Shown here: one piece after another, positions 6,262 through 28,706 of the stretch
Layout of the letters: each line of letters opens with the position of its first letter
Position numbering within the stretch: the stretch's first letter is position 1
From: Methanolobus zinderi
GTDB taxonomy: Archaea; Halobacteriota; Methanosarcinia; Methanosarcinales; Methanosarcinaceae
Direction of reading: 5' to 3'
DNA length: 64,000 bases
Assembly (NCBI RefSeq): GCF_013388255.1
Contig: NZ_CP058215.1
Location: 2,223,332 to 2,287,331, forward strand
Notes under the pieces: model-generated
Databases searched by the model: none
Told to the model about the DNA's origin: nothing
What the model saw: only the letters and a program-made list of their open reading frames with translations
Program-made: the position numbers and the translations under genes

Positions 6262-6266
6262 ACAAT

Positions 6267-7082
6267 TCAGCCCGCAATTTTTGGCTTTAAGCCGTCATAG
6301 ATGAAGTGCAGGATATATACCGTTGACATAACAAGAATAATCGTCGCACCCGAAGGTATGTCAAATATATACGATAAGAACAGGCCCGCAACACTGAACA
6401 ACGCACCGAAGAACATGGCAAGGTACATCATCTTCCTGATATCATTGGTATAATGGCGACTTAGTGTTGCCGGCATTGTGAGCAGTGCGATGATCAAAAT
6501 TATTCCCACGACCTTTATGAGCAGTACGATCGTAAGTGCGATAAGACAGAGCAATAAAAGGTAAAGCCTTTCTATATTGATACCCGCAACCTTTGCGAAT
6601 TCCTCATCAAAGCAGAGGGCCATGAACTCCTTGTAGAAAGCATAGACCAGAACGATTATCACCACATCCAGCGCAAGCATCAGATAGATATCCGAGCGTG
6701 GCACCGTAAGTATGTTCCCGAAAAGATAGGACAGCAGATCAGGAGCATAGCCCGGTGTCAGGTATATGAATACTATACCTATGGCCATACCCAGAGACCA
6801 GAGAATACCTATAAGAGTATCTTCCGCAACCTTAGCCCTCTTGCTGACAAGACCCATTACAACAGCCGAAAGCAGGCTGAAGGGGATGAGTCCGTACAGC
6901 GGATTTATACCAAGGTAGTAGCCTACCCCGATACCTCCGAAGGATGCATGTGAGATACCACCACTTATAAAGACAATCTTTTTGACAACAACGTACACAC
7001 CGATGATGCCACACGCAATACTGGCAAGAATGGCAGCAGTGATTGCATTCTGCATAAAACCGTATTGAAGAATTTCCAGCAT
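6267..7082 (-). CDS. Metal ABC transporter permease (ZnuB/MntB type)
   Basis: An integral membrane protein of the ABC-3 family, the permease of a zinc/manganese/iron importer. It has about eight hydrophobic segments and the family motif around HASFGGIGVGYYLG near residue 50-65. I choose ATG 7082 because GGTG lies 5 bases upstream; a GTG at 7094, directly abutting the ATPase stop, is an alternative giving four more residues. It is the last gene of an operon binding protein, ATPase, permease, all on the minus strand with spacers of 0-12 bases. It ends convergently with tfuA. The metal transported cannot be decided from sequence alone. Confidence 0.93.
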   Translation of the reverse strand: MLEILQYGFMQNAITAAILASIACGIIGVYVVVKKIVFISGGISHASFGGIGVGYYLGINPLYGLIPFSLLSAVVMGLVSKRAKVAEDTLIGILWSLGMAIGIVFIYLTPGYAPDLLSYLFGNILTVPRSDIYLMLALDVVIIVLVYAFYKEFMALCFDEEFAKVAGINIERLYLLLLCLIALTIVLLIKVVGIILIIALLTMPATLSRHYTNDIRKMMYLAMFFGALFSVAGLFLSYIFDIPSGATIILVMSTVYILHFIYDGLKPKIAG

Positions 7083-7094
7083 TTTTGGCACCAC

Positions 7095-7844
7095 TCAGTG
7101 TAGTTTCAGGACTCTGTGTGGCACACCATGTGCTATTAACTCCACCGGACACTGATATGTGGCTTCGAGGTCCTCGGGACTTACTTCCTTGGAGTTGTGA
7201 TAATGCAACTGCTTGTTCAGGCACGCGATCTTATCAACATATACGGACAGTGCACTTATATCGTGAGTTACCATGAGGATGGCGATCTCTGACTTGAGCC
7301 TGTTGAGAAGTTCATAGAACTCTTTCTGCCTCCTGGAATCGATTCCTGTAGAAGGTTCATCCAGTATGAGCAGCCTGGGACGCGTCACCAGTGATCTGGC
7401 AATAAATACCCTCTGCTTCTGACCACCTGAAAGCTCACCGATCTGCCGGTCCCTGAATTCAAGCATTCCCACGGTGTTCAGAGCTTCTTCAGCTGCCTTT
7501 TTGTCCTCTTCATTAAATGACCTGAAAGGTCCCTTATGACTCAGGCGACCCATCAGGACAACCTCCCATACGTTTATGGGGAATTCAAGGTTGGAAGAAA
7601 TATACTGAGGTACATAACCCACATACTTCCTGGTCTTTTTCGGGTTACCACCCAGTAGTTTCACAGAGCCCCTGTCAGGTTTGATCAATCCCAGAATAAC
7701 TTTCAGAAGGGTGCTTTTGCCTCCCCCGTTCGGACCTATTATTGCAAGGAAATCCTTGTCCTCTACGGTGAGGTCTACTGCTTCCAGTACGGAAACGTCA
7801 TCATAACTTACCCAGATATCCTTGAGATCGATCACTTCAGTCAT
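7095..7844 (-). CDS. Metal ABC transporter ATP-binding protein (ZnuC/MntB-type ATPase)
   Basis: The ATPase of the metal importer, 249 residues from the ATG at 7844. Walker A is GPNGGGKST (37-45), the ABC signature is LSGGQKQRV and Walker B is [12 protein letters not shown], followed by the H-loop VTHD. The start at 7844 is preferred because the upstream binding-protein gene stops one base before it (stop at 7846-7848). A longer reading frame to 7886 would overlap that gene. The product energises uptake with the permease downstream. Confidence 0.95.
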
Positions 7845-7845
7845 A

Positions 7846-8790
7846 TTATGCCAGCCCTTTTTCAAATGCTTCGGTAACTTTTGCAAGATTATCTATATAA
7901 TCCTTTGCCAGCGGATCGACCTCCACAACTTCGCCGTCGATCTCACCGGCTATGGTCTGTGCGTTTGTGGTACTGAAGCCAGACTGCACGAATATCACAG
8001 TGATATTCTTTTCCCTGGCCGTATCGATCAGACGCTGCATATCCTGCACACTTGGTTCTTTGCCTTCGATCTCAACAGCTTCCTGTTCAAGTCCGTAGTC
8101 ATCGGCAAAATAGCCCCATGAAGGATGATATACCATAAAGGTGCTGCCTTCCTTGCCAGCAAGTGTTTCCTTTATCTGCTCATCGGCTGCCTGAAGTTCC
8201 CCGATGTAGGCATCCCTGTTCAGAGTGTATAGTTCAGTATTATCTGGATCAATTTCCACCAGACCCTCATAGATGTTCTCAACCATTATCTGTGCTTCCT
8301 GAGGAGATGTCCACACATGCGGATCCTTTGATCCTGCCTCTTCTTCATGTTCTTCCTCTGCCTCGTCGTGCTCCTCTTCACCCTCATGTTCTTCTTCATG
8401 GGCGTGTGCCTCCATGGCCCTTAGCTGGATACCTTCAGAGGCATCAACCACCAGCATGTCAGGATTTACTTCGATCAGCCTGTCCATCCATACATTTTCA
8501 AAGGAAAGGCCTGATCCGACCTTCACATACATGTCAGCATCACTTAACTCACGGAGCTGTCCCGGAGTCACTTCATATGAATGCGGGTCCGCTCCCGGAG
8601 GAACCATTACCATCACATCCACCTGGTCCCCTGCAACCTGCTCCACGAATTCGGCCTCAGGAAGAATACTCACTACCACAACAGGCTTATCCGACGATGT
8701 GGCGGAGACCTCCTGATCATCAACACATCCGCTTGCCAGTACTAGCAATACGAGTGCTAGTAACGCGAGTTTCAACATTCTATATTTCAT
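7846..8790 (-). CDS. Metal-binding lipoprotein of ABC importer (ZnuA-like)
   Basis: The extracellular binding protein of the importer (cluster A-I), 314 residues. It has an N-terminal signal ending in a lipobox-like LVLASGC, then the fold with a metal-ligand region (DPHSYEVTPGQ), a histidine- and glutamate-rich loop (HAHEEEHEGEEEHDEAEE) at roughly residues 135-155 followed by DPHVWTSP, and a final conserved YHPSWGYFADDYGL. The His-rich loop is typical of zinc-type proteins. GAGGT lies 5 bases before the ATG at 8790, which fixes the start over two in-frame ATGs further upstream. It is transcribed away from, and just downstream of, a DtxR-family regulator on the same strand. Confidence 0.95.
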   Translation of the reverse strand: MKYRMLKLALLALVLLVLASGCVDDQEVSATSSDKPVVVVSILPEAEFVEQVAGDQVDVMVMVPPGADPHSYEVTPGQLRELSDADMYVKVGSGLSFENVWMDRLIEVNPDMLVVDASEGIQLRAMEAHAHEEEHEGEEEHDEAEEEHEEEAGSKDPHVWTSPQEAQIMVENIYEGLVEIDPDNTELYTLNRDAYIGELQAADEQIKETLAGKEGSTFMVYHPSWGYFADDYGLEQEAVEIEGKEPSVQDMQRLIDTAREKNITVIFVQSGFSTTNAQTIAGEIDGEVVEVDPLAKDYIDNLAKVTEAFEKGLA

Positions 8791-8835
8791 AAAATACCTC
8801 ATTGTTTGAATATATACCAAATTGTTTGCATAGTA

Positions 8836-8850
8836 TCCAAATATTTTGGA
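8836..8850. promoter_or_regulatory. Imperfect palindrome upstream of metal importer, candidate operator
   Basis: TCCAAATATTTTGGA is symmetric at 13 of 15 positions. It lies about 50 bp upstream of the binding-protein ATG and next to minus-strand TATA-like sequence (GGTATATATTC near 8807-8817), immediately after the DtxR-family regulator gene. The position suits a metal-dependent repressor site, but the link to the regulator is inference. Confidence 0.35.
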
Positions 8851-8859
8851 CAAAAAATA

Positions 8860-11918: not shown

Positions 11919-12192
11919 ACCTTTACCCCGTAAAAACTTCTGTCCTGATGAAATAAAAAGATTACGAGTATTCTTCATCATTTTTTATTATAATACTGAA
12001 ATTTGTATGGCCGGATAGTTGCACTGAAAATAAAATCAGTATTAAGATTTTTGCAGAATAGATTAACAAAATTAACATACATTTAAAATTAAATGTGCAA
12101 TTGTTGATTCTATAAGTATAATTTATATATAATATTTGAGATACTATCTAAGAATATCTAATTCGTTTATCCATGGGTTGGATGTGAAAGGA

Positions 12193-15100
12193 ATGAATTC
12201 AGACAAGAAAAAAATAAACAGGCATATCAGAATCAGTTTTCTGATATGTATAACAATTGTGCTATTGTTGCTAATCAACCCGGTTGGTTCGGCAACATCA
12301 ATTCAAAAATTCAGTATAGATGGAAAAACATACGGTCCGGGAGATGAGATCGACATAACCGGAGAGGTACAGGACGGTAACAGTTCGGGAGAAGTAAAGA
12401 TAATCATATGGCCCGAAGGAGACGAATTTACCGGCCCCGCAAATCAGAGCTCCAATAAAACAGTTACAGCTTCTGAAGGAGTATTCTCCACAACTATGAG
12501 TGCTCCTGATGTGGCAGACAGATATACTGTAGTTGCCGTGGACATTGAGAGCGGTGTGATTTCACCATACCTTTACATGAACGTTGTCGGAGCGAACGAT
12601 CCCCAGACGATTGAAGTGATGTTCACAGAGGGTGAAGTCCTGACTATCGAACTTTCAGAAAGTCACGGGATCACCGGACCCCTCAGTGATGGTAAGACCG
12701 GGGGCAATATAACGCTCGGCGATACCACATACAGCTTCCTTGTATCAGGTTCGGACGTATCATACGTTGATGATGATCCTGATATGAATCTCAGTTCAGA
12801 CGATTCAGGCATGAGTGTAATAGGTAATCTTGTAGAGGGTTCCAAGGTAAAACTCAGTGGAGTAAGCTACAGATTCATCAGCATCAACAATGAGAATGCC
12901 ATTACACTGGCAAAGATCGTGACCCCGAGTTTCACAGGTGGAGAATCGGTAAATGTCAGCATACTGGCATTGAACTCCAGTGGATACCCGGTCCAGGATG
13001 AGATCATGTTTGAGCAGTTCAAAGATGATGGTACTCTTATATCCTCCACAGAGTTGCTGACAAACTCACATGGACTCAATACAACAACGATGACCATAGA
13101 AAGCACAGCAGGTACATATCACCTGGTTGCAGATGACATCGGACACATATCATTTGTTGTAAACACCATGAGCATGTTTGGAGATATGCTTTCCACAGAG
13201 AACACACCCAAACACACCTTTGCCCGTGGCGAAGTTATGATACCTGCAGTATACCTTAACAATTTAAGTTCCGGTGCACCATTGACAGATGCAACCGTCA
13301 CTGCCAGTATCACAAGCAAGAACAATGATTCTTATCTTAACGAACTCACACTCACATACGACGGTGATATCGGTGCCTATACCACAAGCTATACAATTCC
13401 TGATGATGAGGAAATAGACACCTATTACGTAAAATATGAAGCAAGCACTTCAAGTCAGACACAGAAAGCTTACACAAGCTACAACATCAAGGCTTATGAC
13501 ATCTTCATAAAGGCAGTCTCCAAGAATGACGGCGAGAGTGACGGTTTCGCACCGGGAGAGGAAGGATTCCTGGTAATTGCCGGAAGCAATCTTGCCAGCG
13601 GAGAGAACATTGATTTTGAATCAATGACAGGACTCGACACTGCGAACTACAGCCTCAGTATTACCGACAGAGACGGAAATGTAAATACTTCCTTCATGTC
13701 CGTTATGAATGCTACGACTTTCTATGACTACATAGAAGTTCCTGCAGACATACAGGATGAGGTTGAGCAAACTATCGGAGAGACATTTGCCGTAATCAAC
13801 TTCACAGCTCCTGAACAGAACGGCGTCTACGATGTAGAGGTCAGAGCGAACCTCTCAGGCTGGAACACCGCAAGAAGAAGTATCACAGTACAGGATATTT
13901 TCGTGCACGGAGAGCCTGTAAACAAGATGGGATGGTTCAGCCCCACAGTAGCTCCTGATGCCACTGCAAGGATAATGATCACTGCATTCGATCCTTCAAC
14001 AGGTCTGGAGATACCTGCTGAAAATATACACGAAGCAGGACTTGTAGAGGTCTGGAGTGAAAGTGCTTCTGAAGTAGTTACCGAGTACATGGAAGATCCC
14101 GCACTGACAACCATAGAAGGCCAGAAGGTTCTCAGCTTCAATGTCACGGACTCAAACCTTGGTTTCCACTATGTCAGATTCTGGGTCAACGCAACAGTTG
14201 ACGGAAGTCCGACGACTGTAACAGGGGACGCCTGGTTTGATGAGAAGCTCTACAGGATAAAAGGAAAACCGACATTCGATGAGAACTCCAGTACCTTTAA
14301 GGTATTCGGAGCTGATGACACCATCGAGCTTTCAGTACATGTAGAAGACATCAGTGGAAATGATGTATCGTCCGCATCCATCGAGGTTGAAGAACTAAGA
14401 TACGGAATGACAGGTGAAACAATTGCTGTGGAGGATTCTATGAGTTCAGTTACAACTGATTCCAGTGGTGATGCCACACTAAGTATCTCACCTGAAAACA
14501 GTCTCAAATCCGGATTCTACAACGTCAGGATAAAGATGACAACCCAGGATGGTGTAACCGACTACGGAAACGGATGGTTTGAGGTAAGTAACTTTATTTT
14601 CTATCCATATTCCACATCATGGGATGCAGGTATAGATCAGCCTATTAATTTCTCCCTGAACGCCTTTGACAACAACTTCGATTCAAAGGAAGTCAATGTC
14701 ACCCTTACAAAGATCATTGCAATGGGTGACTGGGACATGATGACTCCTTCAACCATGTACAATGATACCGAGATGGATGCCGGAACTATCAACGGAACTG
14801 GATATTATGAATATCCGGGACTTTCCAGAGGAGGTAACTTCGAATTTGTTTTCGAAGCTGATGATGGCAATTCCACAGAGATTGGAAGGGCATGGGTGTA
14901 TACCACAGCCTTTGTCTCATGGGTCGATTCAGATGGAGAATATGACTTCCCGGTTAACGATTTTGTTAACTTCACAGTTAAAGCATCACAGGATAAGATG
15001 TGGAGCAGTAACGGCCACAATATCACAAATGTCACTGTGGAAGAAGTGATGAAGGAAGGCATGTGGAGAACAAGCTACAAGACAAAGAGTCAGATGGCAG

Positions 15101-18100
15101 GTATCACCACCACAGAAGAAGGTTTGAATCCAAATGAGATCAATGTGTCCGTTGATACTACCGGATGGGACCAGGGTGCTTACATGATGACACTTAAAGC
15201 CACAGACGAAAACGGAAATGAAGTCTACACTGATTTCTGGTTCAGACTTGAGCTGGCGAGTGTCACCGTTACAAACCCCATGAGGATAAGTGTCAGTGCC
15301 GCACAGTATCACACCAACACAACATCCATCAGTGCTACAACGGACATACTTACAAAGCAGAGTTACCTGGAAAGTCTGGGCAATATAACTGCCGGAAAGA
15401 TTGCAGGTAGTATCATTGATGAGGATCGGATCTCACCCATTTCAACCGATTATAACATAATGGGCGAGGATTCACATAACAGCAGCTTTGTCCCATACTA
15501 CTCAATGGTAGCAATCGATACAGTTTATGACACACTCTACATCGAATATGAAAATGAGAGTCACTGGGCAATTGGAAATCTGTCCAATTCAACAAGCACA
15601 CAGGTTTTCAATGTGTCCGAAGGATCCGAATTCACGGATTATACCGGAAGGACCTGGGCCATCAGTGAAATCAAGTCAGACGGAACCATAAAACTGGAGG
15701 GTCAGAACACTCTCAAGAATGGTATTCTGCTGAATGATACGATCATGGCTATGAGTAAATCAGGTAAATTCCTTGTAAGTGATTTCCAGGACGATGACTG
15801 GAGGAACATAGACCTCGATGGAGATGGAGAATACTTCGATGATAATTACCTCATACTTATGGCAGACTCCACTACTGCAGGAAAGTATGACACGGTGCTT
15901 ATCAGTGATTCATACAACTTCACCGCAGGATACATAGACGCAAGTGCCGGTGAGCCTGTTGAGTTCGGTGGCGATCCGATATACCTGCTCAGTAACAAGT
16001 ACCAATCCTCCGCATATACACTGGAGTTCAGCACATATGAGGAAGGCTGGAACGGCATGAAAATCGGAACATTCCAGAACGGATCAACAATAAAGGTTCC
16101 ATTCCTGGTGACAACACCTGGAGGCGACCCACTTGCGGACAAGGATGTCAGAATTGACTATCTCATAGATGAAAGTAAAACAAGGCAGACCCTCGAGAAC
16201 GTCAACGCCACAACTGATTCCACGGGACTGGCACTCATCGAGATCAATACTTCAGAAGCAAACATACCAACCGGCTCCTGGATGATACACTACAATGTGA
16301 CCATCGAAGAAGGCGAGTATGCAGTTGCCAATGAAGAGACTTTCTGGGAGCTCACACGCTTTGAAGTACGTAACTTCATGGTTTCAGGAGCACTTGGAAT
16401 CCCCGGTGAGATAGACCTCATCAAACTCAATGATGATGACAGCAGTGACGGTATGCCAGGAAACAACATGCTTCTTGCATACGGAGACGAGATCGAGTTC
16501 AAGAAAGGTGTCTCTGCCTATAATTTCAATCCAGAATCAGACATGTACAATATGGACTGGCCATTCAATGAATGGTACTACAACAGTACAACAGGTGCAT
16601 TCAACTATTCTGCAGACGGAGAGAAACTTGAAGCCGGCGAGATCGGAGTCGGTGCCAGCATCAACTCAAGCAGTGCAAGCCTTGCTCTGGACTACAATGT
16701 AACAATGGTGAACAACACAGGCGATACAATAGTCCTGAGCTATGATGAAAGCACCAGCTTCTATGATGATATGTGGAACTTTACTGTAAACGACTGCAAT
16801 TCAAGTGCCGGAACAGCAAATATATCCATGACGTATCAGGGCTGGCCGTGGACAGTACCGGGCTATAACCGGGATTCAGGACCTGAGGTCAGGGAATTCA
16901 CTCTAGGAGAACAATACTGGATGGGAGGACTGGACTTCAATGTCAGTGAGATCAATGAGTTTGATGTTGTGCTTACCCTTAGAAGTCCGATAATGATTCT
17001 TAGCGTGGAAGCTGTCGAACCGGTCATGAATGACATGACAAGCTATTCAGGATCCGTGGCTCAGGCCAACTTCAATGGCCAGGACTACTACATCTTCGGT
17101 TACGAAGATGAAGCTGGTACAATGTATGACCAGTTGCCTGAATACTTCCCTGAAACAAAGGACAGCATACTTGTGGTCAATGCAAGTGATTCAAATGATG
17201 TGAGCAACTATCGCATCGGCGAGACCATCAGCGAATTCGATAACTACTATGCTGCATCGGTTTCAAACTGGGGAGGCAGGTTCATACTGCTCAACAGCAG
17301 TGTCACGCAGGTCTACCCAATTCCTGAATGGATATCAGACGAACCAATCTTCTACACCGGTAAATTCAGTGATGAAGATGTAGGATTTGACGTTGCAACT
17401 GCAGGTATGATGTTTGATGAAAACGATGTCGAACCGGGTGTCGGTGAGATCACATCCGATGAACGTTATCATATACTTCTCATGGACACTCTCTCAAACG
17501 GAGTGAACATGCCTACTGAGGCTGTATACGATGACGACTCGGATCTTACTACACTTCGTGACTGGCAGAACTATGAGAATGTGAATTCCATATATGACCT
17601 GTACACCACAGAACAGGGATTCAACGACTCAATCCCTGAGAATTTCATGGATGGCCAGGATTCCTTCCCTCTGGTGAATATGTCCGAGGGACAGGCCTGG
17701 GAGATTGGTACCGGCAATATGGATAGCTGGCCGGTTGCCTTCCCGACCCTCAAGATCAATGAGAGCGCAGGTACGGCAATTCTCAAGTCCTTCTCTTCAG
17801 TATCAGAAGTTCAAACAAACGAGACCATAACCGTCTTTGTCACAGCAAAGGACTTTGATGGAACACCTGTAGAAGGAACTGCGGAACTTAAGTCTCTGAA
17901 GATGACTTTCGGTGGATACTTCGAGGAAGGACCTGTAGAAGATGGCCCAGTTTCATGGGATATGAGTTCTGCAATGGTCAATACGACCCTTGTGGATGGA
18001 GAAGGTACTCTTGAAATTCTGCCTGAAGACATGGAAGGTATCGACTATGACTTTGCTGAATTCACAGCCTTTGTGGATATTCAGAAGAATTCAGGAGGAA

Positions 18101-18213
18101 CAGAAACCTTGAAGATAAACTTCTTCATGCAGGGTGATATGTCAGAGTTCATGCAGGGACAATACATGGACGATGGACCAATGGATGGCGAAGACCCAAT
18201 GGGAGGTAATTGA
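12193..18213 (+). CDS. Giant secreted surface protein with repeated beta-sandwich domains
   Basis: A secreted protein of about 2006 residues. The start is ATG 12193, because GGATGTGA (near the archaeal consensus GGAGGTGA) lies 5 bases upstream; an ATG 57 bases earlier has no such site. A signal peptide follows (charged KKKINRHIR, then LICITIVLLLLINP, then SA). The body consists of many Ig-like or macroglobulin-like beta domains rich in Asp, Ser, Thr and N-glycosylation sequons, with one EF-hand-like calcium loop, DLDGDGEYFD. The C-terminus is methionine, aspartate and glycine rich and has no membrane anchor. The following gene begins 2 bases after the stop and does carry an anchor, so the two may work as a pair on the cell surface. 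The function is unknown; adhesion or S-layer association is inferred. Confidence 0.9.
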   Translation: MNSDKKKINRHIRISFLICITIVLLLLINPVGSATSIQKFSIDGKTYGPGDEIDITGEVQDGNSSGEVKIIIWPEGDEFTGPANQSSNKTVTASEGVFSTTMSAPDVADRYTVVAVDIESGVISPYLYMNVVGANDPQTIEVMFTEGEVLTIELSESHGITGPLSDGKTGGNITLGDTTYSFLVSGSDVSYVDDDPDMNLSSDDSGMSVIGNLVEGSKVKLSGVSYRFISINNENAITLAKIVTPSFTGGESVNVSILALNSSGYPVQDEIMFEQFKDDGTLISSTELLTNSHGLNTTTMTIESTAGTYHLVADDIGHISFVVNTMSMFGDMLSTENTPKHTFARGEVMIPAVYLNNLSSGAPLTDATVTASITSKNNDSYLNELTLTYDGDIGAYTTSYTIPDDEEIDTYYVKYEASTSSQTQKAYTSYNIKAYDIFIKAVSKNDGESDGFAPGEEGFLVIAGSNLASGENIDFESMTGLDTANYSLSITDRDGNVNTSFMSVMNATTFYDYIEVPADIQDEVEQTIGETFAVINFTAPEQNGVYDVEVRANLSGWNTARRSITVQDIFVHGEPVNKMGWFSPTVAPDATARIMITAFDPSTGLEIPAENIHEAGLVEVWSESASEVVTEYMEDPALTTIEGQKVLSFNVTDSNLGFHYVRFWVNATVDGSPTTVTGDAWFDEKLYRIKGKPTFDENSSTFKVFGADDTIELSVHVEDISGNDVSSASIEVEELRYGMTGETIAVEDSMSSVTTDSSGDATLSISPENSLKSGFYNVRIKMTTQDGVTDYGNGWFEVSNFIFYPYSTSWDAGIDQPINFSLNAFDNNFDSKEVNVTLTKIIAMGDWDMMTPSTMYNDTEMDAGTINGTGYYEYPGLSRGGNFEFVFEADDGNSTEIGRAWVYTTAFVSWVDSDGEYDFPVNDFVNFTVKASQDKMWSSNGHNITNVTVEEVMKEGMWRTSYKTKSQMAGITTTEEGLNPNEINVSVDTTGWDQGAYMMTLKATDENGNEVYTDFWFRLELASVTVTNPMRISVSAAQYHTNTTSISATTDILTKQSYLESLGNITAGKIAGSIIDEDRISPISTDYNIMGEDSHNSSFVPYYSMVAIDTVYDTLYIEYENESHWAIGNLSNSTSTQVFNVSEGSEFTDYTGRTWAISEIKSDGTIKLEGQNTLKNGILLNDTIMAMSKSGKFLVSDFQDDDWRNIDLDGDGEYFDDNYLILMADSTTAGKYDTVLISDSYNFTAGYIDASAGEPVEFGGDPIYLLSNKYQSSAYTLEFSTYEEGWNGMKIGTFQNGSTIKVPFLVTTPGGDPLADKDVRIDYLIDESKTRQTLENVNATTDSTGLALIEINTSEANIPTGSWMIHYNVTIEEGEYAVANEETFWELTRFEVRNFMVSGALGIPGEIDLIKLNDDDSSDGMPGNNMLLAYGDEIEFKKGVSAYNFNPESDMYNMDWPFNEWYYNSTTGAFNYSADGEKLEAGEIGVGASINSSSASLALDYNVTMVNNTGDTIVLSYDESTSFYDDMWNFTVNDCNSSAGTANISMTYQGWPWTVPGYNRDSGPEVREFTLGEQYWMGGLDFNVSEINEFDVVLTLRSPIMILSVEAVEPVMNDMTSYSGSVAQANFNGQDYYIFGYEDEAGTMYDQLPEYFPETKDSILVVNASDSNDVSNYRIGETISEFDNYYAASVSNWGGRFILLNSSVTQVYPIPEWISDEPIFYTGKFSDEDVGFDVATAGMMFDENDVEPGVGEITSDERYHILLMDTLSNGVNMPTEAVYDDDSDLTTLRDWQNYENVNSIYDLYTTEQGFNDSIPENFMDGQDSFPLVNMSEGQAWEIGTGNMDSWPVAFPTLKINESAGTAILKSFSSVSEVQTNETITVFVTAKDFDGTPVEGTAELKSLKMTFGGYFEEGPVEDGPVSWDMSSAMVNTTLVDGEGTLEILPEDMEGIDYDFAEFTAFVDIQKNSGGTETLKINFFMQGDMSEFMQGQYMDDGPMDGEDPMGGN

Positions 18214-21184: not shown

Positions 21185-21586
21185 TCAGCTAAGTGTGACC
21201 TGACTGTGACAGCTGCAATTGCAGCTACAGTCATCGTGACCATGGTCGTGGTCATGGCTGTCACAGTTGCCATCCTGGTTCTTTGCAAGTGCACCGGATT
21301 CCCATGCATTAATGGCATCTTTTATAGTTCCGGATGCACCAATGAAAACATCAATCCCTTTCTGCTGGAGCATCATTGCAGCACCCTTTCCGATACCTCC
21401 GCAGAGCATTATGTTCACACCGGCTCCAGCCATCAGATCAGCAGGACCTTCACCGCCATTTTTCACTACAACAGAATATTCACCGGTCTCTGTGTCAAAG
21501 ACGGTGTAGGCAGGCGCCCTTCCAAAATGCTGGCTGACTGTATCATCGATTCCGCCTTTTCCCATACATGGTACGCTTACTTTCAT
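21185..21586 (-). CDS. NifX/NifB-C family protein with His/Cys-rich tail
   Basis: A 133-residue protein of the dinitrogenase iron-molybdenum cofactor-binding family (PF02579 type). The fold runs from MKVSVPCMGKGG through QHFGRAPAYTVFD to GGIGKGAAMMLQQKGIDVFIGASGT (over residues 1 to about 95). A metal-binding C-terminus rich in His, Asp and Cys follows, including DSHDHDHGHDD and CSCNCSCH. Such proteins bind metal-sulfur clusters and are common outside nitrogen fixation. The start ATG 21586 has GTGAT upstream. No nif genes are near. The tail suggests metal storage or delivery, which is inference. Confidence 0.88.
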   Translation of the reverse strand: MKVSVPCMGKGGIDDTVSQHFGRAPAYTVFDTETGEYSVVVKNGGEGPADLMAGAGVNIMLCGGIGKGAAMMLQQKGIDVFIGASGTIKDAINAWESGALAKNQDGNCDSHDHDHGHDDCSCNCSCHSQVTLS

Positions 21587-22031
21587 GATATCACTTGACA
21601 ATTGAGTATTTATTTGAAATTTTCATCTGTATTTGAATCTGTATCAGATCAAATACATCCTTTAGGTACATAAGTGTTTAATTATAAAAGCATTATCCAA
21701 AACATATATTTATTTCTACCTGATTTCGCAAAAAGTATAGATAAAGAGAAATCAAAAAATGATGCGATAAAATCCTGCGTCTTCTTTTTTACAGGAACTC
21801 ATCTACTTCGGAAAAAAGTATGTAAGTTAAAAACAGGCAGGACTATTTTCAAAATCAAAGAACTTTACAGGAAGTTAACTTCCTATATGCTAATACTTAA
21901 ATATTTGTCTGCTTATTAGAGTAATTGAACCCCAAAGATCAGATCAAACAAAGACTGGTAAAATACGGAATTGACCAGATAAGAAAATAGTAGCATCAGG
22001 GCAGATGAAATGAAACCTTCAGGGGAATAAT
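21587..22031. other. AT-rich 445-base spacer upstream of the three-gene module
   Basis: No convincing gene is seen. A plus-strand reading frame at 21674-21919 is AT-rich, lysine and phenylalanine rich, lacks a ribosome binding site and looks spurious. A TATA-like AATACTTAAATATTTG lies near 21893-21908, which would give the downstream operon a leader of about 110 bases. That leader contains a possible hairpin (CTGGT near 21955 pairing with ACCAG near 21974). Confidence 0.4.
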
Positions 22032-23264
22032 ATGAAAACAATTGACGAAACAATGAGCATTTACCAGATATTGAGTGAACATCCCTCTTTATTAAAAATA
22101 TTCAAACAGCATGGAATGGGAAAATTCGAGAACCGGGAGGTGCTCGAAAAACTTGGCCCACTGCTGAAATTAAAAACAGCCCTGTCAATGGTATCGGTGA
22201 ACAGGGAATCGTTTATTGAGCTTTTGAATCAGGCTGTTGAGGACAATGAAGCAAAGGGAGATTTTACACTTGCGGATTCCCCGGAAAGACAAAAGGAGCT
22301 GAGCCTTCTTGCCCTCTTACCTTGCGGTATGAAAATGCCCTTTAATCGTGCACTTGATGCCTTTTCAACTGAGTACAGGGAAAAAACCGGCAATATGCTC
22401 CATTCCCTTGTAGAAGGTAATGTTAATCATGAGCTCTCCTACTATGCATATGTAGATTCGGTTACATCCATCGACGAACTGCCGGACATAATTATCAGTT
22501 CCGATATCAACAGTTTCTATCACAAACCCTTCCGGGAGAACTTTCTCAGCAAGGACTATTTCGTGAATCTTAATTCATCTCCCATGAACCGCGATCTGAA
22601 ATCAATAGATTATGCCGACCCACGCGACCAGTTCACCATGCTCTCTGCAAACCTGCTTGTTCTGGTGACAATAGATGAGCTCATGGAGGATGACAGTAAG
22701 CCGAAATCCTGGGAAGATGTTCTGAAAGAAGAAAACCGCAACAGGGTTGCCATGCGGGGAATGAACGGATTTTTCTGCAATGGAGTACTGCTTCCCTTCT
22801 ATCAGATGTACGGAATGGAAGGTATCAAAAAGCTTGCATCATCAATATATACAGGACTCCATCCATCCGAGATGGTGAAGATGATAGACAGCAAAAAAGA
22901 CGATGTACCGGCCATGTACATTATGCCCTACTTCTTTACCAGGAAGATCAAGGACAAGTCCAGTATAACCATCACCATTCCTTCAGAAGGAGCTATTGTA
23001 AGCCCGGTACAGATGCTGGTCAAGAAAAGTGCAGCGGAAAATGTAAAGGAGATCACGGATTTCCTTTGCGGAAAAGAGTTCGGCGAAGTCTCTGCCAGAG
23101 CCTTATTCCCTACAACGAATCCTGAAGTCGATAATGATCTTAAGGACATGCCACTTTACTGGATGGGATGGGAGTACCTGATGAATACCGATGTAGGATC
23201 TCTTAAAAAAGAGATAGCAGAGGTCTTCAATAAACAGTTCACCATCACCGGAGGTGTCTTTTGA
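22032..23264 (+). CDS. DUF1858-like domain fused to ABC-type substrate-binding fold, cytoplasmic
   Basis: A 410-residue protein. The N-terminal 65 residues (TMSIYQILSEHPSLLKIFKQHGM) resemble DUF1858. The rest (about 85-405) resembles a type 2 periplasmic binding protein of the iron/molybdate class, for example DIIISSDINSFYHKPFR and the C-terminal GWEYLMNTD. There is no signal peptide or lipobox, so the protein should stay in the cytoplasm, which is odd for this fold. The ATG follows GGGGAATAAT. Its stop overlaps the TTG start of the GTPase gene. It is the first gene of a module with a GTPase and an ABC-type ATPase, with no permease, and hgcAB follows. A role in binding and handing over a metal or cofactor is inference. 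Confidence 0.8.
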   Translation: MKTIDETMSIYQILSEHPSLLKIFKQHGMGKFENREVLEKLGPLLKLKTALSMVSVNRESFIELLNQAVEDNEAKGDFTLADSPERQKELSLLALLPCGMKMPFNRALDAFSTEYREKTGNMLHSLVEGNVNHELSYYAYVDSVTSIDELPDIIISSDINSFYHKPFRENFLSKDYFVNLNSSPMNRDLKSIDYADPRDQFTMLSANLLVLVTIDELMEDDSKPKSWEDVLKEENRNRVAMRGMNGFFCNGVLLPFYQMYGMEGIKKLASSIYTGLHPSEMVKMIDSKKDDVPAMYIMPYFFTRKIKDKSSITITIPSEGAIVSPVQMLVKKSAAENVKEITDFLCGKEFGEVSARALFPTTNPEVDNDLKDMPLYWMGWEYLMNTDVGSLKKEIAEVFNKQFTITGGVF

Positions 23265-23956
23265 GACTTGTCACGGTAGCAGGTCCTCCGTCATCAGGAA
23301 AAACCAGTATCATAATCAGGACAATTGAAGAACTCAGGCAGAAGGGACTGAATGTCGGTGTGGTCAAGTTCGACTGCCTCTCGGCTCAGGATGAAGAACT
23401 CTATTCAAGTTCCAATATTCCGGTCAGGACCGGGCTCTCTGGAGGGCTGTGTCCTGATCACTTCTTTGTGAGCAATATAGAGGAGGCACTTGGATGGGCA
23501 AAAGAGCGTAACTTCGATTATCTCATCACCGAGAGTGCCGGCCTCTGCAACCGTTGTTCTCCGCATATCAGAGATGTTCTGGCAATCTGTGTCATAGATA
23601 ATCTGAGTGGGGTCAATACGCCCAGAAAGATCGGTCCCATGCTAAAACTTGCAGATATCGTCGTCATTACCAAAGGGGATATTGTCTCCCAGGCAGAGCG
23701 TGAGGTCTTTGCATACAGGGTCCGACAGGTCAACCCCGGTGGAACGATAATTCATATCAATGGCGTTACGGGACAGGGTGGCTTCTATCTTGCAAAGCTT
23801 GTCGAGAAAAGCGGCTCGGTTGAGACACTTCAGGGAGCCATACTTAGATTTACCATGCCCGGAGCCCTGTGTTCGTACTGTCTCGGGGAAAGGAAGATCG
23901 GAGATGACAGGCAGATCGGTGTTTCAAAGCTCGTGAATTTCAGAGGGGATGATTAG
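23261..23956 (+). CDS. HypB/CooC-like P-loop GTPase with CxxC metal motifs
   Basis: A 231-residue P-loop protein of the HypB/UreG/CooC kind, usually metal-insertion GTPases or ATPases. Walker A is GPPSSGKTS (residues 8-16), a switch-like ESAGLCNRCSPH lies in the middle with a CxxC, and VVITKGD takes the place of the NKxD base-recognition motif. A second CxxC (CSYC) is near the C-terminus. The start is TTG 23261, set by a perfect GGAGGTG 4 bases upstream (23250-23256) and overlapping the previous stop. It is translationally coupled to both neighbours. By family it may load a metal into a client. The client is unknown, and the nearby corrinoid protein HgcA is one possibility. Confidence 0.85.
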   Translation: MRLVTVAGPPSSGKTSIIIRTIEELRQKGLNVGVVKFDCLSAQDEELYSSSNIPVRTGLSGGLCPDHFFVSNIEEALGWAKERNFDYLITESAGLCNRCSPHIRDVLAICVIDNLSGVNTPRKIGPMLKLADIVVITKGDIVSQAEREVFAYRVRQVNPGGTIIHINGVTGQGGFYLAKLVEKSGSVETLQGAILRFTMPGALCSYCLGERKIGDDRQIGVSKLVNFRGDD

Positions 23957-24971
23957 ATTGCGGACATATATGCTCCGGATGACAATAGATGAACTCATGG
24001 AGATGATGCCCTGGATAGAGGACTACTTCTCTTCTTTCGCCATCGATCCTGCCAGGTTTAGAGACAATAAGCTGGAAGAGCTGAGTTCTATAATCGGCGA
24101 AGATTATTTTGTTGAGAAAGGGAGTAGCTATTCCGATTTCATTGAAGGTTTCTTCCTGTTCATCGAGCAGGTAAGAGCACTTCAGCAGGAAAGCAGGTTC
24201 ATGGTTGAATCCCTGACAGTGCTCCCCGGAAAGGATAAAAAAGGCAAGAAGGAGTCCTTTTTGGTAGAACTTAAAAAGGGAGAGGTGACAGCTATAGTCG
24301 GTCCCACGGGATCAGGTAAATCACGCCTGCTTGCCGATATCGAATCCTTGGCGCAGGAAGATACTCCCACCGGGCGCAGGATACTGGTTGATGGCAGATC
24401 GCCAAGTGATGAGGAGCGTTTCTCAACCGAAGGACGTTTTATTGCACAGCTTTCACAGAACATGAACTTTGTCATGGACCTCAGTGTAGAGGACTTCCTG
24501 ACACTTCATGCTGAAAGCCGTATGGTCGATGAGATATCACATATCATCCGGAAAATATATGACACTGCAAACGTCCTGGCAGGGGAGACTTTCAGCCGGA
24601 ATACCCCTGTCACAGAGCTCTCAGGCGGACAGTCACGAGCACTGATGATAGCAGATACAGCACTTCTGAGTCCTGCATCCGTTGTCCTTATCGATGAGAT
24701 CGAGAACGCCGGGGTAGATAAGGTAAGATCCCTGGAACTTCTGGTAAGCAACAACAAGATCGTCCTGATAAGCACCCACGATCCCCTGCTGGCACTCTCG
24801 GCAGATCAGCGGCTGGTCATCAAGAACGGCGGAATCTCAAAACTGCTGAAGACCACAGAAGATGAGAAAAAGCACCTCAAGAGCCTTGAGAAGATAGACA
24901 GGAAGATAACTCTTTTAAGGGACCGGTTGAGGACGGGGGAAGAGATAGATTTGAGTGATCTTCCGGTTTGA
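23949..24971 (+). CDS. ABC-type ATPase with N-terminal DUF1858/ScdA-like domain
   Basis: A 340-residue soluble ATPase. The N-terminal 75 residues (TIDELMEMMPWIEDYFSSFAI) resemble the DUF1858/ScdA_N helical domains and echo the N-terminus of the first gene of this module. An ABC ATPase follows: Walker A GPTGSGKS (about 118-125), signature ELSGGQSRAL, Walker B VVLIDEIENAG and H-loop STHD. A charged coiled-coil-like tail ends the protein. The start is uncertain: ATG 23949 abuts GAGGGG, while TTG 23958 has better spacing to it. It overlaps the GTPase gene by 8 bases. There is no transmembrane partner, so an ordinary transporter is unlikely. Confidence 0.83.
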   Translation: MIRLRTYMLRMTIDELMEMMPWIEDYFSSFAIDPARFRDNKLEELSSIIGEDYFVEKGSSYSDFIEGFFLFIEQVRALQQESRFMVESLTVLPGKDKKGKKESFLVELKKGEVTAIVGPTGSGKSRLLADIESLAQEDTPTGRRILVDGRSPSDEERFSTEGRFIAQLSQNMNFVMDLSVEDFLTLHAESRMVDEISHIIRKIYDTANVLAGETFSRNTPVTELSGGQSRALMIADTALLSPASVVLIDEIENAGVDKVRSLELLVSNNKIVLISTHDPLLALSADQRLVIKNGGISKLLKTTEDEKKHLKSLEKIDRKITLLRDRLRTGEEIDLSDLPV

Positions 24972-24993
24972 TCTTTGTCTCACAAGATTGAAG

Positions 24994-25005
24994 GATAAGC
25001 TTATC
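24994..25005. promoter_or_regulatory. Perfect 12 bp palindrome between the module and hgcA
   Basis: GATAAGCTTATC is fully self-complementary. It lies 23 bases after the ATPase stop and about 127 bases before the hgcA start. It could be an operator or a fortuitous palindrome. No T-run follows, so a terminator role is not supported. Confidence 0.25.
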
Positions 25006-25131
25006 TGATTATTTCATTATCAACCATAGCAGTTGCTTTTCTATTTAGCAGATAGATATATGTGTAGCATACTTTCATAGTATTAATATTCCAGACCATC
25101 TGGATGAACTATCATTACAGAGAGAAGGAAT

Positions 25132-26208
25132 ATGGATAATAAAGATACAGGCTCATGCTGCCAACCTGACAGCAAAGCGGATACAGACCAATTTATCAGA
25201 ATGATCGATCTGAACCGGAATAGCCATGCGCCTGTGATCCGTGAAACTACAAGCACCATTTCATTCAGGGACAGATCTGACCATTTCCTTGCCCGACTGG
25301 GAGTGAACAGAATGGGCCACATCGTAGAACCCGGCATCTACAGACTGGGAAACCCTGATGCGGATTCACCGGTATTCGTCTCGGCTAATTACACACTCAG
25401 CTTCGATGCGCTACGCAGCTCACTGGCGGGTATCGACTGTTACATCCTTGTAATCGATACCAAAGGGATCAATGTATGGTGTGCTGCCGGCAAAGGAACA
25501 TTCGGCACTGCAGAGATTGTATACCGTATCAGGTGGTCAGGACTCTCAGATATAATCAAGCATAGAAACATAATTTTACCTCAGCTAAGTGCTCCGGGTG
25601 TTTCTGCACATGAAGTGAGGCGCCTGTCGGGATTTAATGTAGAATACGGACCCGTACGTGCCAGGGATCTGCCGGAGTATCTTAAAACACACACTGCAAC
25701 ACCTGAAATGCGCAGAGTCCGGTTCACCTTCCGGGAAAGACTGGTGCTGACACCCATAGAATTAACCCATATTGTTCTGCCAACATTGATCGCTGCCCTT
25801 ATTCTCTATTTGCTGGCCGGTCCTTTTGCAGCATTCATAGCAATCTTAATTGCATTTACAGGAGCTGTATTGTTCCCTGTTCTGTATCCTTTCATCCCGA
25901 CACAGGACTTTAGCACAAAAGGACTTATCCTGGGCGCAATCGTAACAATTCCTTTTGCAGCAACTATTGCAGCTGGCTCTGAGCTCCTTTTGTGGGAGAG
26001 AATAGTTGCTGTGTTAACAACATTCCTTTTAACCGCCTCAGTAACCGCATACCTTGCCCTCAATTTCACAGGTTGCACAACCCATACATCAAGAACAGGT
26101 GTCAAAAAAGAGATTTTCAGATACGTGCCTTTGATGGCACTTATGGCAGTTACGGGAATGTTACTCCTTATCATTCTCGGGATAACTCGTTTAATGGAAG
26201 TGATCTGA
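25132..26208 (+). CDS. hgcA: Mercury methylation corrinoid protein HgcA
   Basis: HgcA transfers a methyl group from its corrinoid to Hg(II), with HgcB supplying electrons. It is required for methylmercury formation in anaerobes. The 358-residue protein has the diagnostic cap-helix motif NVWCAAGK (residues 114-121); Cys117 matches the cysteine that coordinates cobalt in studied HgcA proteins. The N-terminal half (about 30-200) is the CFeSP-like corrinoid domain. The C-terminal half has five predicted membrane helices (from about 215 to 355), the known HgcA architecture. The ATG follows AGAAGGAAT. Its stop overlaps the hgcB start (TGATG). The N-terminus carries an extra cysteine pair, SCCQ, at residues 8-11. 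Confidence 0.97.
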   Translation: MDNKDTGSCCQPDSKADTDQFIRMIDLNRNSHAPVIRETTSTISFRDRSDHFLARLGVNRMGHIVEPGIYRLGNPDADSPVFVSANYTLSFDALRSSLAGIDCYILVIDTKGINVWCAAGKGTFGTAEIVYRIRWSGLSDIIKHRNIILPQLSAPGVSAHEVRRLSGFNVEYGPVRARDLPEYLKTHTATPEMRRVRFTFRERLVLTPIELTHIVLPTLIAALILYLLAGPFAAFIAILIAFTGAVLFPVLYPFIPTQDFSTKGLILGAIVTIPFAATIAAGSELLLWERIVAVLTTFLLTASVTAYLALNFTGCTTHTSRTGVKKEIFRYVPLMALMAVTGMLLLIILGITRLMEVI

Positions 26209-26498
26209 TGTTTGATTCATATAATGAGAATACTCTGCAATATTATCCTGAAAAGTGTATCAACTGTCTTATGTGCACACAGGTCTGCCCTCATGGAGTG
26301 TTCACTGGAGGAGGGGAACACGTTGAACTCAAAAGACCTTCATCGTGTATGGAATGCGGAGCATGCGCAATGAATTGTCCCGTGCAGGCAATTGAAGTTC
26401 AGAGTGGAGTTGGATGTGCCTGGGCAATGATAAGAGCAGCCCTCAGAGGTAAGGACATGGATAGTGCTGACTGTTGTTGCAACGGTGATTCTTGTTAA
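26208..26498 (+). CDS. hgcB: Mercury methylation ferredoxin HgcB
   Basis: A 96-residue ferredoxin with two [4Fe-4S] motifs, CINCLMCTQVCP and CMECGACAMNCP. The second contains the CMECGAC signature typical of HgcB. A further cysteine in VGCAW and a C-terminal cysteine cluster (CCCNGDSC) match the conserved extra cysteines that are thought to bind mercury or pass it to HgcA. The ATG at 26208 overlaps the hgcA stop, with GGAAGTGATC just upstream, so it is coupled to hgcA. Its role is electron donation to the corrinoid of HgcA. Confidence 0.97.
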   Translation: MFDSYNENTLQYYPEKCINCLMCTQVCPHGVFTGGGEHVELKRPSSCMECGACAMNCPVQAIEVQSGVGCAWAMIRAALRGKDMDSADCCCNGDSC

Positions 26499-26560: not shown

Positions 26561-26577
26561 AAAGAAGATAACGCGTG

Positions 26578-27378
26578 ATGTTAACAATTTTTGAGGCGGT
26601 CATACTTGGTATCGTCCAGGGAGTGGCTGAGTGGTTACCCATAAGCAGCGAGGGAATGACATCCCTTTTGATGATAAATGTTTTCGGAAAGACGCTTGCT
26701 GAAGCCCTTCCCATCTCCATCTGGCTGCACACGGGGACACTGCTCTCTGCAACCATATATTTCAGAAAAGACATCATGGAGATCCTGAAAGATATCCCGC
26801 AATATCTGGAAAATCTGGCATCAGGTAAGAGAGAAGATCAACCGATAATCAATTTTCTTATCATTTCAACACTCCTGACCGGTCTGGTAGGCCTTCCCTT
26901 GATAATCTTTGCAACCGGAATGACAGAGATATCAGGGAAGATCGCAACTGCCCTGATCGGTCTGCTGTTGATATTCACCGGCCTGCTGCAGATAAGCGCC
27001 TCAAAAAGGGAAACAAGAAAAGAGCTGCCCTCTTTTGGAGATTCTCTTTTCACAGGAGTTGCCCAGGGATTTGCAGCACTTCCCGGCATCAGCCGTTCAG
27101 GGATCACAGTCTCATCCCTGCTTCTGAGAAACTTCAATGCCACCCAGGCGCTCAGACTGAGTTTCCTCATGAGCATACCTGCGGTACTGGCAGCAGATGT
27201 GGGGATAGCAGCAATGGGAATACTGACAATCGATATGAATTCGCTACTGGCGTTACTCTTTGCCTTTATATTCGGGATACTTACCATTGATCTCTTTATA
27301 AAGATCGCAGAGAGATTTGATTTTGCCAGATTTTGCATAGTACTTGGGTTGCTGAGTCTGCTGGCATATTTCGTATGA
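26578..27378 (+). CDS. uppP: Undecaprenyl/polyprenyl-diphosphatase, UppP/BacA family
   Basis: An integral membrane phosphatase that recycles polyprenyl diphosphate, in archaea probably for dolichyl or other lipid carriers of glycosylation. The 266-residue protein has about eight hydrophobic segments and both family motifs: GIVQGVAEWLPISSEG (residues 11-26, with glutamate 18) and PGISRSG near residue 168. The usual phenylalanine and histidine of the first motif are changed to W and M, as in other archaeal copies. ATG 26578 is preferred; GTG 26575 is the adjacent alternative. A TATA box about 26 bases upstream suggests a leaderless mRNA. Confidence 0.9.
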   Translation: MLTIFEAVILGIVQGVAEWLPISSEGMTSLLMINVFGKTLAEALPISIWLHTGTLLSATIYFRKDIMEILKDIPQYLENLASGKREDQPIINFLIISTLLTGLVGLPLIIFATGMTEISGKIATALIGLLLIFTGLLQISASKRETRKELPSFGDSLFTGVAQGFAALPGISRSGITVSSLLLRNFNATQALRLSFLMSIPAVLAADVGIAAMGILTIDMNSLLALLFAFIFGILTIDLFIKIAERFDFARFCIVLGLLSLLAYFV

Positions 27379-27391
27379 GGGTTTTAAATTC

Positions 27392-27407
27392 ATTCCCATA
27401 TGGGAAT
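27392..27407. promoter_or_regulatory. Perfect 16 bp palindrome upstream of DUF134 gene, candidate operator
   Basis: ATTCCCATATGGGAAT is a perfect palindrome. It directly abuts a TATA-like TTATTTAATAAATT (27407-27420) and lies 58 bases before the DUF134 ATG. In archaea the position just upstream of TATA suits an activator, or a repressor blocking factor TFB. DUF134 proteins have an HTH, so autoregulation is a natural guess. Confidence 0.5.
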
Positions 27408-27464
27408 TATTTAATAAATTTTACTGATAAGTTTTAAGTACTCAAATCTCCTTCATGAAAACTA

Positions 27465-27776
27465 ATGAAATGCAGAGGCAGACCTAAGTCTCCAAGAAGA
27501 GTCGGCTGTTCTCCTGAAGTGCTTTACTTCAAACCTAGGGGAGTACCGCTAAAGGAACTTGATACCGTATCCCTTGCAATCGAAGAACTGGAAGCCTTAA
27601 GACTTGTGGATGTTGAAGGGATGACACAGGAAGATGCAGCTTTTACAATGGGCATTTCAAGACGTGCTTTCTGGAAAGACCTGAAAAGTGCAAGAAAGAA
27701 AGTAGCACTGGCACTCACCACCGGAAAGGCCATAGAAATAGCAAATGAGAGTCCTGTTGATACCGGAAAAGAATAG
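27465..27776 (+). CDS. DUF134 family HTH protein
   Basis: A 103-residue DUF134 protein, a putative DNA-binding regulator. The N-terminal [18 protein letters not shown] is diagnostic, and a sigma-70 region 4-like HTH follows ([24 protein letters not shown] in two parts, about 52-75). No clear ribosome binding site precedes the ATG. A TATA-like TTTAAGTA lies about 30 bases upstream and another AT-rich box lies further up. It is 96 bases before an Mrp/NBP35 Fe-S carrier on the same strand; DUF134 genes are frequently found with such Fe-S or NifX-like genes. The target is unknown. Confidence 0.9.
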
Positions 27777-27872
27777 CAATGATTCTTATTCAGATAAGGA
27801 TTATTCGACCAGACATTAAACAGAACGATTACAATTCATACACAATTCATAATTTATCACAGAGGAGATCAA

Positions 27873-28706
27873 ATGGCACAAAATATCCAGAGTCCTGAAA
27901 CTTTGCTTGAGAAACCACAGGAATCAAAGCTCATCAAACAGATGAGAGCGATCAAGAATAAGATTATGGTCATGAGTGGCAAAGGTGGAGTTGGTAAAAG
28001 TACCGTTGCCGCGAACCTTGCTGCGCGCCTTGCTGACCGTGGATATAAAGTGGGCCTGCTTGATGCGGATATACACGGACCAAGTATTCCAAAGATGTTC
28101 GGGATCGAGGATGAGAGACCAAATGTAGGTGAGGATGGGATTATACCCATTCCTGTAACTGAGAATCTGAGTATCATGTCAATAGCACTTTTGGTGGAGG
28201 ATAAGGACTCACCCATCATATGGAGAGGACCTGCAAAAATGGCAGCCATCAAACAGTTCCTTGAAGAGGTTGCATGGGGAAAGCTGGACTACCTGTTCAT
28301 TGATCTGCCGCCGGGTACAGGAGACGAACCACTGAGCATTGCACAGCTGATCGAGAAACTTGACGGTGCCGTAGTGGTAACCACTCCCCAGGACGTGGCC
28401 CTTCTGAGTGTTAGGAAATCCCTGACCTTTGCTCACATGCTCGAAGTACCTGTCATCGGTATTGTGGAGAACATGGGTGCTATGAGATGTCCGCACTGTG
28501 ATGAAAAGATAGACATCTACGGAATGGGTGGGGTCGAAAAGGCCGCTGCTGACTTTGATGTAGATGTCATCGGAGAGTTACCGATCGATCCTGAGATCGC
28601 TGATATAGAGGATCAGGGAAGGGTTCATCTCGAAGGAGACAGAGACCTTGAATGGTTCAGGGAATTCAGCAAGGTCGTAGACAGCGTGGAGAATTTCAAG
28701 AAATAA
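27873..28706 (+). CDS. apbC: Mrp/NBP35 (ApbC) family iron-sulfur cluster carrier ATPase
   Basis: A 277-residue P-loop ATPase that binds and transfers Fe-S clusters. The deviant Walker A SGKGGVGKST is at residues 35-44, the switch region DADIHGPSIPKM follows, Walker B is FIDLPPGTGD, and the cluster-binding CxxC is in MRCPHC near residue 208. A strong ribosome binding site, GAGGAGATC, precedes the ATG. It follows the DUF134 regulator and is followed by a terminator. It likely serves Fe-S protein maturation; the nearby hgcB and nrdD products are possible clients, which is inference. Confidence 0.95.
   Translation: MAQNIQSPETLLEKPQESKLIKQMRAIKNKIMVMSGKGGVGKSTVAANLAARLADRGYKVGLLDADIHGPSIPKMFGIEDERPNVGEDGIIPIPVTENLSIMSIALLVEDKDSPIIWRGPAKMAAIKQFLEEVAWGKLDYLFIDLPPGTGDEPLSIAQLIEKLDGAVVVTTPQDVALLSVRKSLTFAHMLEVPVIGIVENMGAMRCPHCDEKIDIYGMGGVEKAAADFDVDVIGELPIDPEIADIEDQGRVHLEGDRDLEWFREFSKVVDSVENFKK

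Follow-up and report, generated by a model that had tools for sequence, protein, structure and literature searches.

The window analysed here is a stretch of 64,000 nt from Methanolobus zinderi (contig NZ_CP058215.1, positions 2,223,332 to 2,287,331), part of a single-contig 2.70 Mb Methanosarcinaceae genome, and it carries on its forward strand a module of three consecutive genes that is also found in close relatives within Methanolobus. The first gene (22032–23264) encodes a 410-residue protein with two domains that pass the Pfam cut-offs, an N-terminal DUF1858 domain (residues 4–62, 22041–22217; PF08984, 44.4 bits against a cut-off of 32.2, 1.8e-11; solved relative 2fi0) and an SBP_bac_6 substrate-binding protein (SBP) domain (203 bits). 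The second gene (23261–23956) begins with TTG, overlaps the first by 4 nt and has the ribosome binding site GGAGGTG at 23250–23256; its 231-residue product is a GTPase of the CobW/HypB/UreG class (Pfam cobW, 53.2 bits against 20.7, 3.5e-14). The third gene is annotated at 23949–24971 and encodes a soluble ATP-binding cassette (ABC) ATPase of 340 residues (Pfam ABC_tran, 60.5 bits, 3.4e-16), for which no membrane domain is reported. At the annotated ATG the sequence GAGGGG (23943–23948) abuts the start codon directly. Translation more likely begins at TTG 23958, because GAGGGG then lies 9 nt from the start and the product has 337 residues, the length of most orthologues. Genes 2 and 3 would then abut rather than overlap by 8 nt, and the overlap of all three genes described in the original prediction holds for the first pair but probably not for the second. 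Recent transfer, as judged by base composition, receives no signal from the GC content of the module (0.467 against 0.457 for the window), and a defence system was rejected since PADLOC returned only generic ATPase matches for these genes.

The gene 1 product is a binding protein without an export signal. A hydrophobic N-terminus is absent from 60 of its 62 homologues. Among the Peripla_BP_2/ZnuA (FecB/ZnuA-type) importer binding proteins encoded nearby, used as a control, 26 of 33 do carry a hydrophobic leader. The homologues are leaderless in every phylum, even beside a complete FecBCD importer that has its own exported binding protein. The AlphaFold model (pLDDT 89.3) has its best structural matches in SfuA, KfuA, YfuA and FbpA (Z 20–22 over approximately 282 residues; Z 21.7 and rmsd 3.0 over 281 residues for SfuA), so that the assignment to an FbpA-like class is a likeness of fold, based on a predicted structure. 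Residues P97, P151, W227, H277, P299, G320 and P325 do not vary among 31 gene 1 sequences, and C98 hardly does. In the model C98 is found immediately past strand 1 of the SBP domain, at a place that would correspond to the ligand His9 of FbpA. The Bacteroidota forms of the protein do not contain DUF1858.

An ordinary ABC importer with a lost or misplaced permease would account for an SBP and a nucleotide-binding domain (NBD) in one operon, and permeases do adjoin relatives of the module in other phyla. This explanation is most improbable, as the leaderless form of the SBP is found throughout the lineages, those that have a complete importer and a separate FecB included, and the ATPase bears an additional N-terminal domain that resembles DUF1858. 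Domain and family profile searches found no permease among the tested genes between 19738 and 28706. The absence of a signal peptide on the binding protein and of a membrane partner for the ATPase in the window, both part of the original prediction, are thus borne out, and its view of an intracellular, metal-linked machine rather than a simple importer is upheld by the leaderless SBP and by the candidate ligands in the GTPase.

For the GTPase, the closest full-domain solved relatives are UreG and HypB, and its CPDH motif (residues 64–67, 23450–23461) aligns on the CPH of UreG. It scores below the NCBIfam equivalog cut-offs of both families (49 against 121.2 bits for HypB and 36.7 against 204.2 bits for UreG). 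Across 24 GTPases from all genomic contexts, down to 36% identity, the CPDH motif (with C64 and H67) and the C-terminal C204 and C207 (23870–23881) are invariant, as are E91, A93, G94, L95, C96, R98 and C99 of the segment ESAGLCNRC (residues 91–99, 23531–23557). The two CxxC motifs pointed out earlier, C96/C99 and C204/C207, are therefore confirmed, together with the CPDH motif. From its conservation, this Cys/His set is a candidate for the metal ligands of the protein. In a tree of 83 GTPases the contexts fall into separate clades, with long branches that make the deep order unsure.

The gene 3 product contains intact Walker A, LSGGQ, Walker B and H-loop motifs, and these NBD motifs are kept in 26 homologues. 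Its AlphaFold model (pLDDT 90.1) shows the NBD fold (Z approximately 19), which matches many transporter NBDs equally well, with SmsC2 among the ties. The N-terminal domain (approximately residues 8–76, 23970–24176) is confidently predicted to be all-helical. It has no Pfam DUF1858 match and aligns with the DUF1858 domain of gene 1 with an hhalign probability of 95.5%; the DUF1858 N-termini originally assigned to both proteins thus stand at the level of a Pfam match in gene 1 and of a profile-profile likeness in gene 3. Two candidates for a natural ABC–GTPase fusion were rejected: the 545-residue frame at locus L210 is an out-of-frame extension, and the one at L080 is a chimera from an apparent internal deletion. 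In the latter (L080:958–2040), the N-terminus of the GTPase is fused in frame to the C-terminus of the ATPase.

Profile searches find the GTPase family in 79 of 295 genomes of the window's own phylum, 19 of 345 of the phylum that includes Bacteroides (L011), 18 of 296 of the Spirochaetes phylum (L009) and 8 of 329 of the Deltaproteobacteria/Myxococcota phylum (L010), where all but L010 itself are distant relatives; it is also present in Fusobacterium vincentii. In 184 of 200 locus records the ATPase gene adjoins that of the GTPase, on the same strand and less than 400 nt away; the records overlap and include redundant ones, so that this figure does not stand for independent cases. The GTPase–ATPase pair is found in archaea and four bacterial phyla, and it is accompanied by a cytosolic third protein that varies by context. 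The leaderless SBP is the third protein in Methanolobus, Methanosarcina, L010, Spirochaetes, Fusobacterium and Bacteroidota. In six archaeal loci of Methanomicrobia type, belonging to other families, the gene directly after that of the ATPase encodes a DUF364/DUF4213 protein ('putative heavy-metal chelation'), and these loci often contain FecCD-type genes.

The third protein of coenzyme M loci is an Fe-S protein with domain PF04060. The order in these loci is cysteate synthase, ATPase, GTPase, Fe-S protein and sulfopyruvate decarboxylase alpha/beta, with MMP16 adjoining, and the window's own genome has such a paralogous pair in a coenzyme M operon outside the window (G000:C1:2338486–2339157; L180:4484–10172). 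MMP16 is the coenzyme M synthase, and the colocalisation of an ATPase, a 'Ni2+ binding GTPase' and a COG2000 protein in coenzyme M loci has been reported, with their role given as unknown (PMC12068725, Fig. 2). Judging by its place and FeS domain, the Fe-S protein seen here is probably that COG2000 protein. Coenzyme M-type GTPase–ATPase–Fe-S protein sets are also present at L203 and L204, in the phylum of L009, with no coenzyme M genes nearby. A further arrangement in the phylum of L010 (L111, L113 and L114) has two distant GTPases flanking a radical SAM gene, followed by an ABC ATPase; a nitrogenase-component-1-like protein is encoded near the copy at L113.

The neighbours of the SBP form differ between lineages. 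In Bacteroidota the cluster is nearly constant and comprises a TonB receptor, FecD permease, FecC ATPase, methyltransferase, FecB, SBP, GTPase and ATPase, to which some loci add a tetrapyrrole methylase, and the Fusobacterium module adjoins ZnuABC. A Methanosarcina paralogue (L043, L044 and L045; Methanosarcina-type genomes G086, G088 and G092) lies with a FecCD importer and several Peripla_BP_2 genes, and also near two homocitrate-synthase-like (HMGL) genes, an aconitase-like gene and a Nitro_FeMo-Co protein; the arrangement resembles a locus for a metallophore or chelate. The Spirochaetes loci have an Rrf2 regulator and a hybrid cluster protein as neighbours.

The module is proposed to be a cytosolic relay for a metal or metal chelate, a reading to which we give about an even chance. 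It is supported by three unrelated, metal-tied and predicted cytosolic third proteins sharing one core with an invariant Cys/His set, most simply read as a relay with an exchangeable cargo protein, and by the metal-chelate importers that adjoin relatives in Bacteroidota (FecCD, Peripla_BP_2 and TonB receptors), Fusobacterium, the Methanosarcina paralogue and other Halobacteriota. In this scheme the gene 1 protein, with its ferric-binding-protein fold, would clamp a metal, as an ion or in a small chelate, in the cytosol. The GTPase would accept the metal through the Cys and His residues of its CPDH, AGLCxRC and CxxC motifs, as UreG and HypB do with nickel, with GTP acting as a switch between loading and release. 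The ABC ATPase, needing no membrane partner, would dimerise on ATP and force open either the binding protein or the client so that the metal can be inserted; docking between the gene 1 and gene 3 products may be mediated by their related DUF1858-like domains. Our first guess for the metal is iron, suggested by the FbpA fold and by the Rrf2, hybrid cluster protein and Fe-S neighbours, followed by nickel or cobalt; the kinship of the GTPase with UreG and HypB favours nickel.

Several points weigh against this proposal. FbpA-like folds include binders of thiamine, pyridoxal phosphate and sugar phosphate, so that something other than a metal may be the cargo. The modelled likeness of gene 1 to FbpA is one of fold. 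A natural GTPase–ATPase fusion was not found among the locus records, and the pair in coenzyme M operons could serve sulfur chemistry rather than metal insertion.

In an unlikely alternative, the module releases or uses an imported organic or chelated nutrient (e.g. a corrinoid, a thiamine-like compound or a (homo)citrate chelate) and the ligand, not the metal, is the cargo. The importer, TonB receptor, methyltransferase and tetrapyrrole methylase neighbours in Bacteroidota and the genes resembling homocitrate synthase and aconitase near the Methanosarcina paralogue are consistent with this, as is the structure search with gene 1, where metal-citrate, thiamine, pyridoxal phosphate and sugar-phosphate binders come close behind the ferric-binding proteins. 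However, the Cys/His set of the GTPase is kept in every context, including those with other third proteins, and an importer is absent within approximately 9 kb of the module in the window.

A unit for the repair of Fe-S clusters or di-iron centres under nitrosative or oxidative stress is quite unlikely. It would fit the Rrf2 gene directly upstream of the module at L060 and L196, the hybrid cluster protein near it at L060, L198 and L033, and the presence of DUF1858 in gene 1 and of a related domain in gene 3. These neighbours are seen only in Spirochaetes and one Methanolobus, though, and the Bacteroidota loci, whose gene 1 lacks the domain, sit with importers instead.

The metal relay may be extended to a broader proposal, which is tentative and which we hold to be somewhat improbable as a whole: the pair would be a general, unnamed engine of cytosolic metal delivery with swappable cargo proteins, unloading metal-chelate importers in bacteria, maturing MMP16 in methanogens and servicing some metalloenzyme in the window's organism. 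If this were true, one engine would explain the coenzyme M loci, the Bacteroidota loci for metal-chelate uptake by FecBCD/TonB and the leaderless SBP modules, which have hitherto been viewed apart or not at all. It would also supply a testable set of partners for the maturation of coenzyme M synthase, and intracellular carriers built on a periplasmic-binding-protein fold would form a new class. The pair was known before in coenzyme M loci (PMC12068725); the literature search found no paper on the form with the leaderless SBP, and a paper on the proteome of M. barkeri on mineral iron makes no mention of a GTPase.

Directly downstream of the module, across a gap of 160 nt (24972–25131) and on the same strand, are hgcA (25132–26208; NCBIfam NF040863, 441 bits against a cut-off of 275) and hgcB (26208–26498, start taken from the sequence; NF040864, 113.5 bits against 99). 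The hgcAB genes are genuine and positioned as first described, and both are judged to lie outside the module. The original prediction inferred from this position that the module could serve HgcA/HgcB or another corrinoid or Fe-S client, and a dedicated accessory of HgcA and HgcB would load their corrinoid or Fe-S clusters or feed mercury. Searches of 101 Methanosarcinaceae genomes, one with gene 1 and one with the model of HgcA, do show an association within Methanolobus, where 10 genomes have both, 1 has only the module, 5 have only hgcA and 8 have neither (Fisher p = 0.013), and the module is within a few kb of hgcA in 8 of the 10 genomes having both. Outside Methanolobus, however, the module occurs in 7 genomes and hgcA in 7 others, with none shared. 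The module is widespread in organisms lacking hgcAB, and it regularly adjoins a permease in Bacteroidota, in Fusobacterium and at the Methanosarcina paralogue; both findings are of the kind that the original prediction had named as refuting it.

Synteny and phylogeny also conflict with such a service. The usual order in Methanolobus is NAPRTase, module, variable insert, hgcAB and DEAD helicase, with both the spacing and the intervening genes varying among loci. In one genome (G083) the module occupies this slot without hgcAB, and in another (G079, L121:3561) the NAPRTase gene is followed by a broken hgcA, in pieces with internal stops, and no module. The setting in the window differs from the usual order and is common to L008 of genome G081, which has hgcA on another contig. 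The window groups with G081 in the module tree (97/94) and does not do so in the HgcA tree, and at least three gains or losses are needed to place hgcA on the module tree. A single weak ATATAT at -76 came up as a candidate promoter element of hgcA in the window, with only two loci for comparison. The linkage of the module to hgcAB is real, confined to the Methanolobus lineage and repeatedly broken, as would be expected of neighbours rather than of an obligate system. A dedicated service is very unlikely and is rejected here because of the co-occurrence, the synteny and the conflict between the trees. On this evidence the position beside hgcAB is incidental, the client in Methanolobus need not be HgcA or HgcB, and genes beside hgcAB in this genus should not be taken as mercury-methylation genes. 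The papers examined on hgcAB neighbourhoods make no mention of the module.

Other genes surround the module in the window. The gene at 21185–21601, near a DUF1847 gene, encodes a Nitro_FeMo-Co domain protein whose tail (HDHDHGHDDCSCNCSCH) is rich in His and Cys; both genes flank the module in L008 as well. The region after hgcB (26575–28706) encodes BacA, a DUF134 regulator and an Mrp/NBP35 Fe-S carrier, an order that is kept in L008 without hgcAB. Further upstream, a YcaO gene is close to a ZnuA/ABC-3 metal importer (4319–8853), and a gene for a 2025-residue protein with no Pfam match is followed by a second gene for a secreted-looking surface protein (12136–18213).

Among known systems, UreG, HypB and CobW share the cobW domain with gene 2, and the window's CPDH falls on the UreG CPH; the window GTPase differs in its AGLCxRC segment, its C-terminal CxxC, its ABC ATPase partner and its equivalog scores below the cut-offs. 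FbpA, SfuA, FutA and the metal-citrate-binding protein MctA have the fold of gene 1 (Z 19–22) at 9–15% identity, whereas gene 1 has no export signal and contains DUF1858 and the conserved Cys98 and His277. SufC-type ABC ATPases likewise work without a permease, but the module has no SufB/SufD-like gene, and genes 1 and 2 match other families than those of SUF. The Sao genes, reported with hgcAB selenoproteins in a table of PMC13188914, are also ABC-system binding-protein genes linked to HgcAB; as described in that table, they differ by including a permease and selenoproteins. For the set in coenzyme M loci, the third protein is an Fe-S domain protein instead of an SBP, the ATPase does not have the N-terminal domain, and the set is accompanied by cysteate synthase, ComD/E and MMP16; the window module has neither coenzyme M biosynthesis genes nor the Fe-S protein as neighbours, while the paralogue at L180 has all of them. 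The two sets are nevertheless alike in their core, with 48% identity between the GTPases, approximately 45–50% between the ABC ATPases, and the invariant GTPase motifs common to both.

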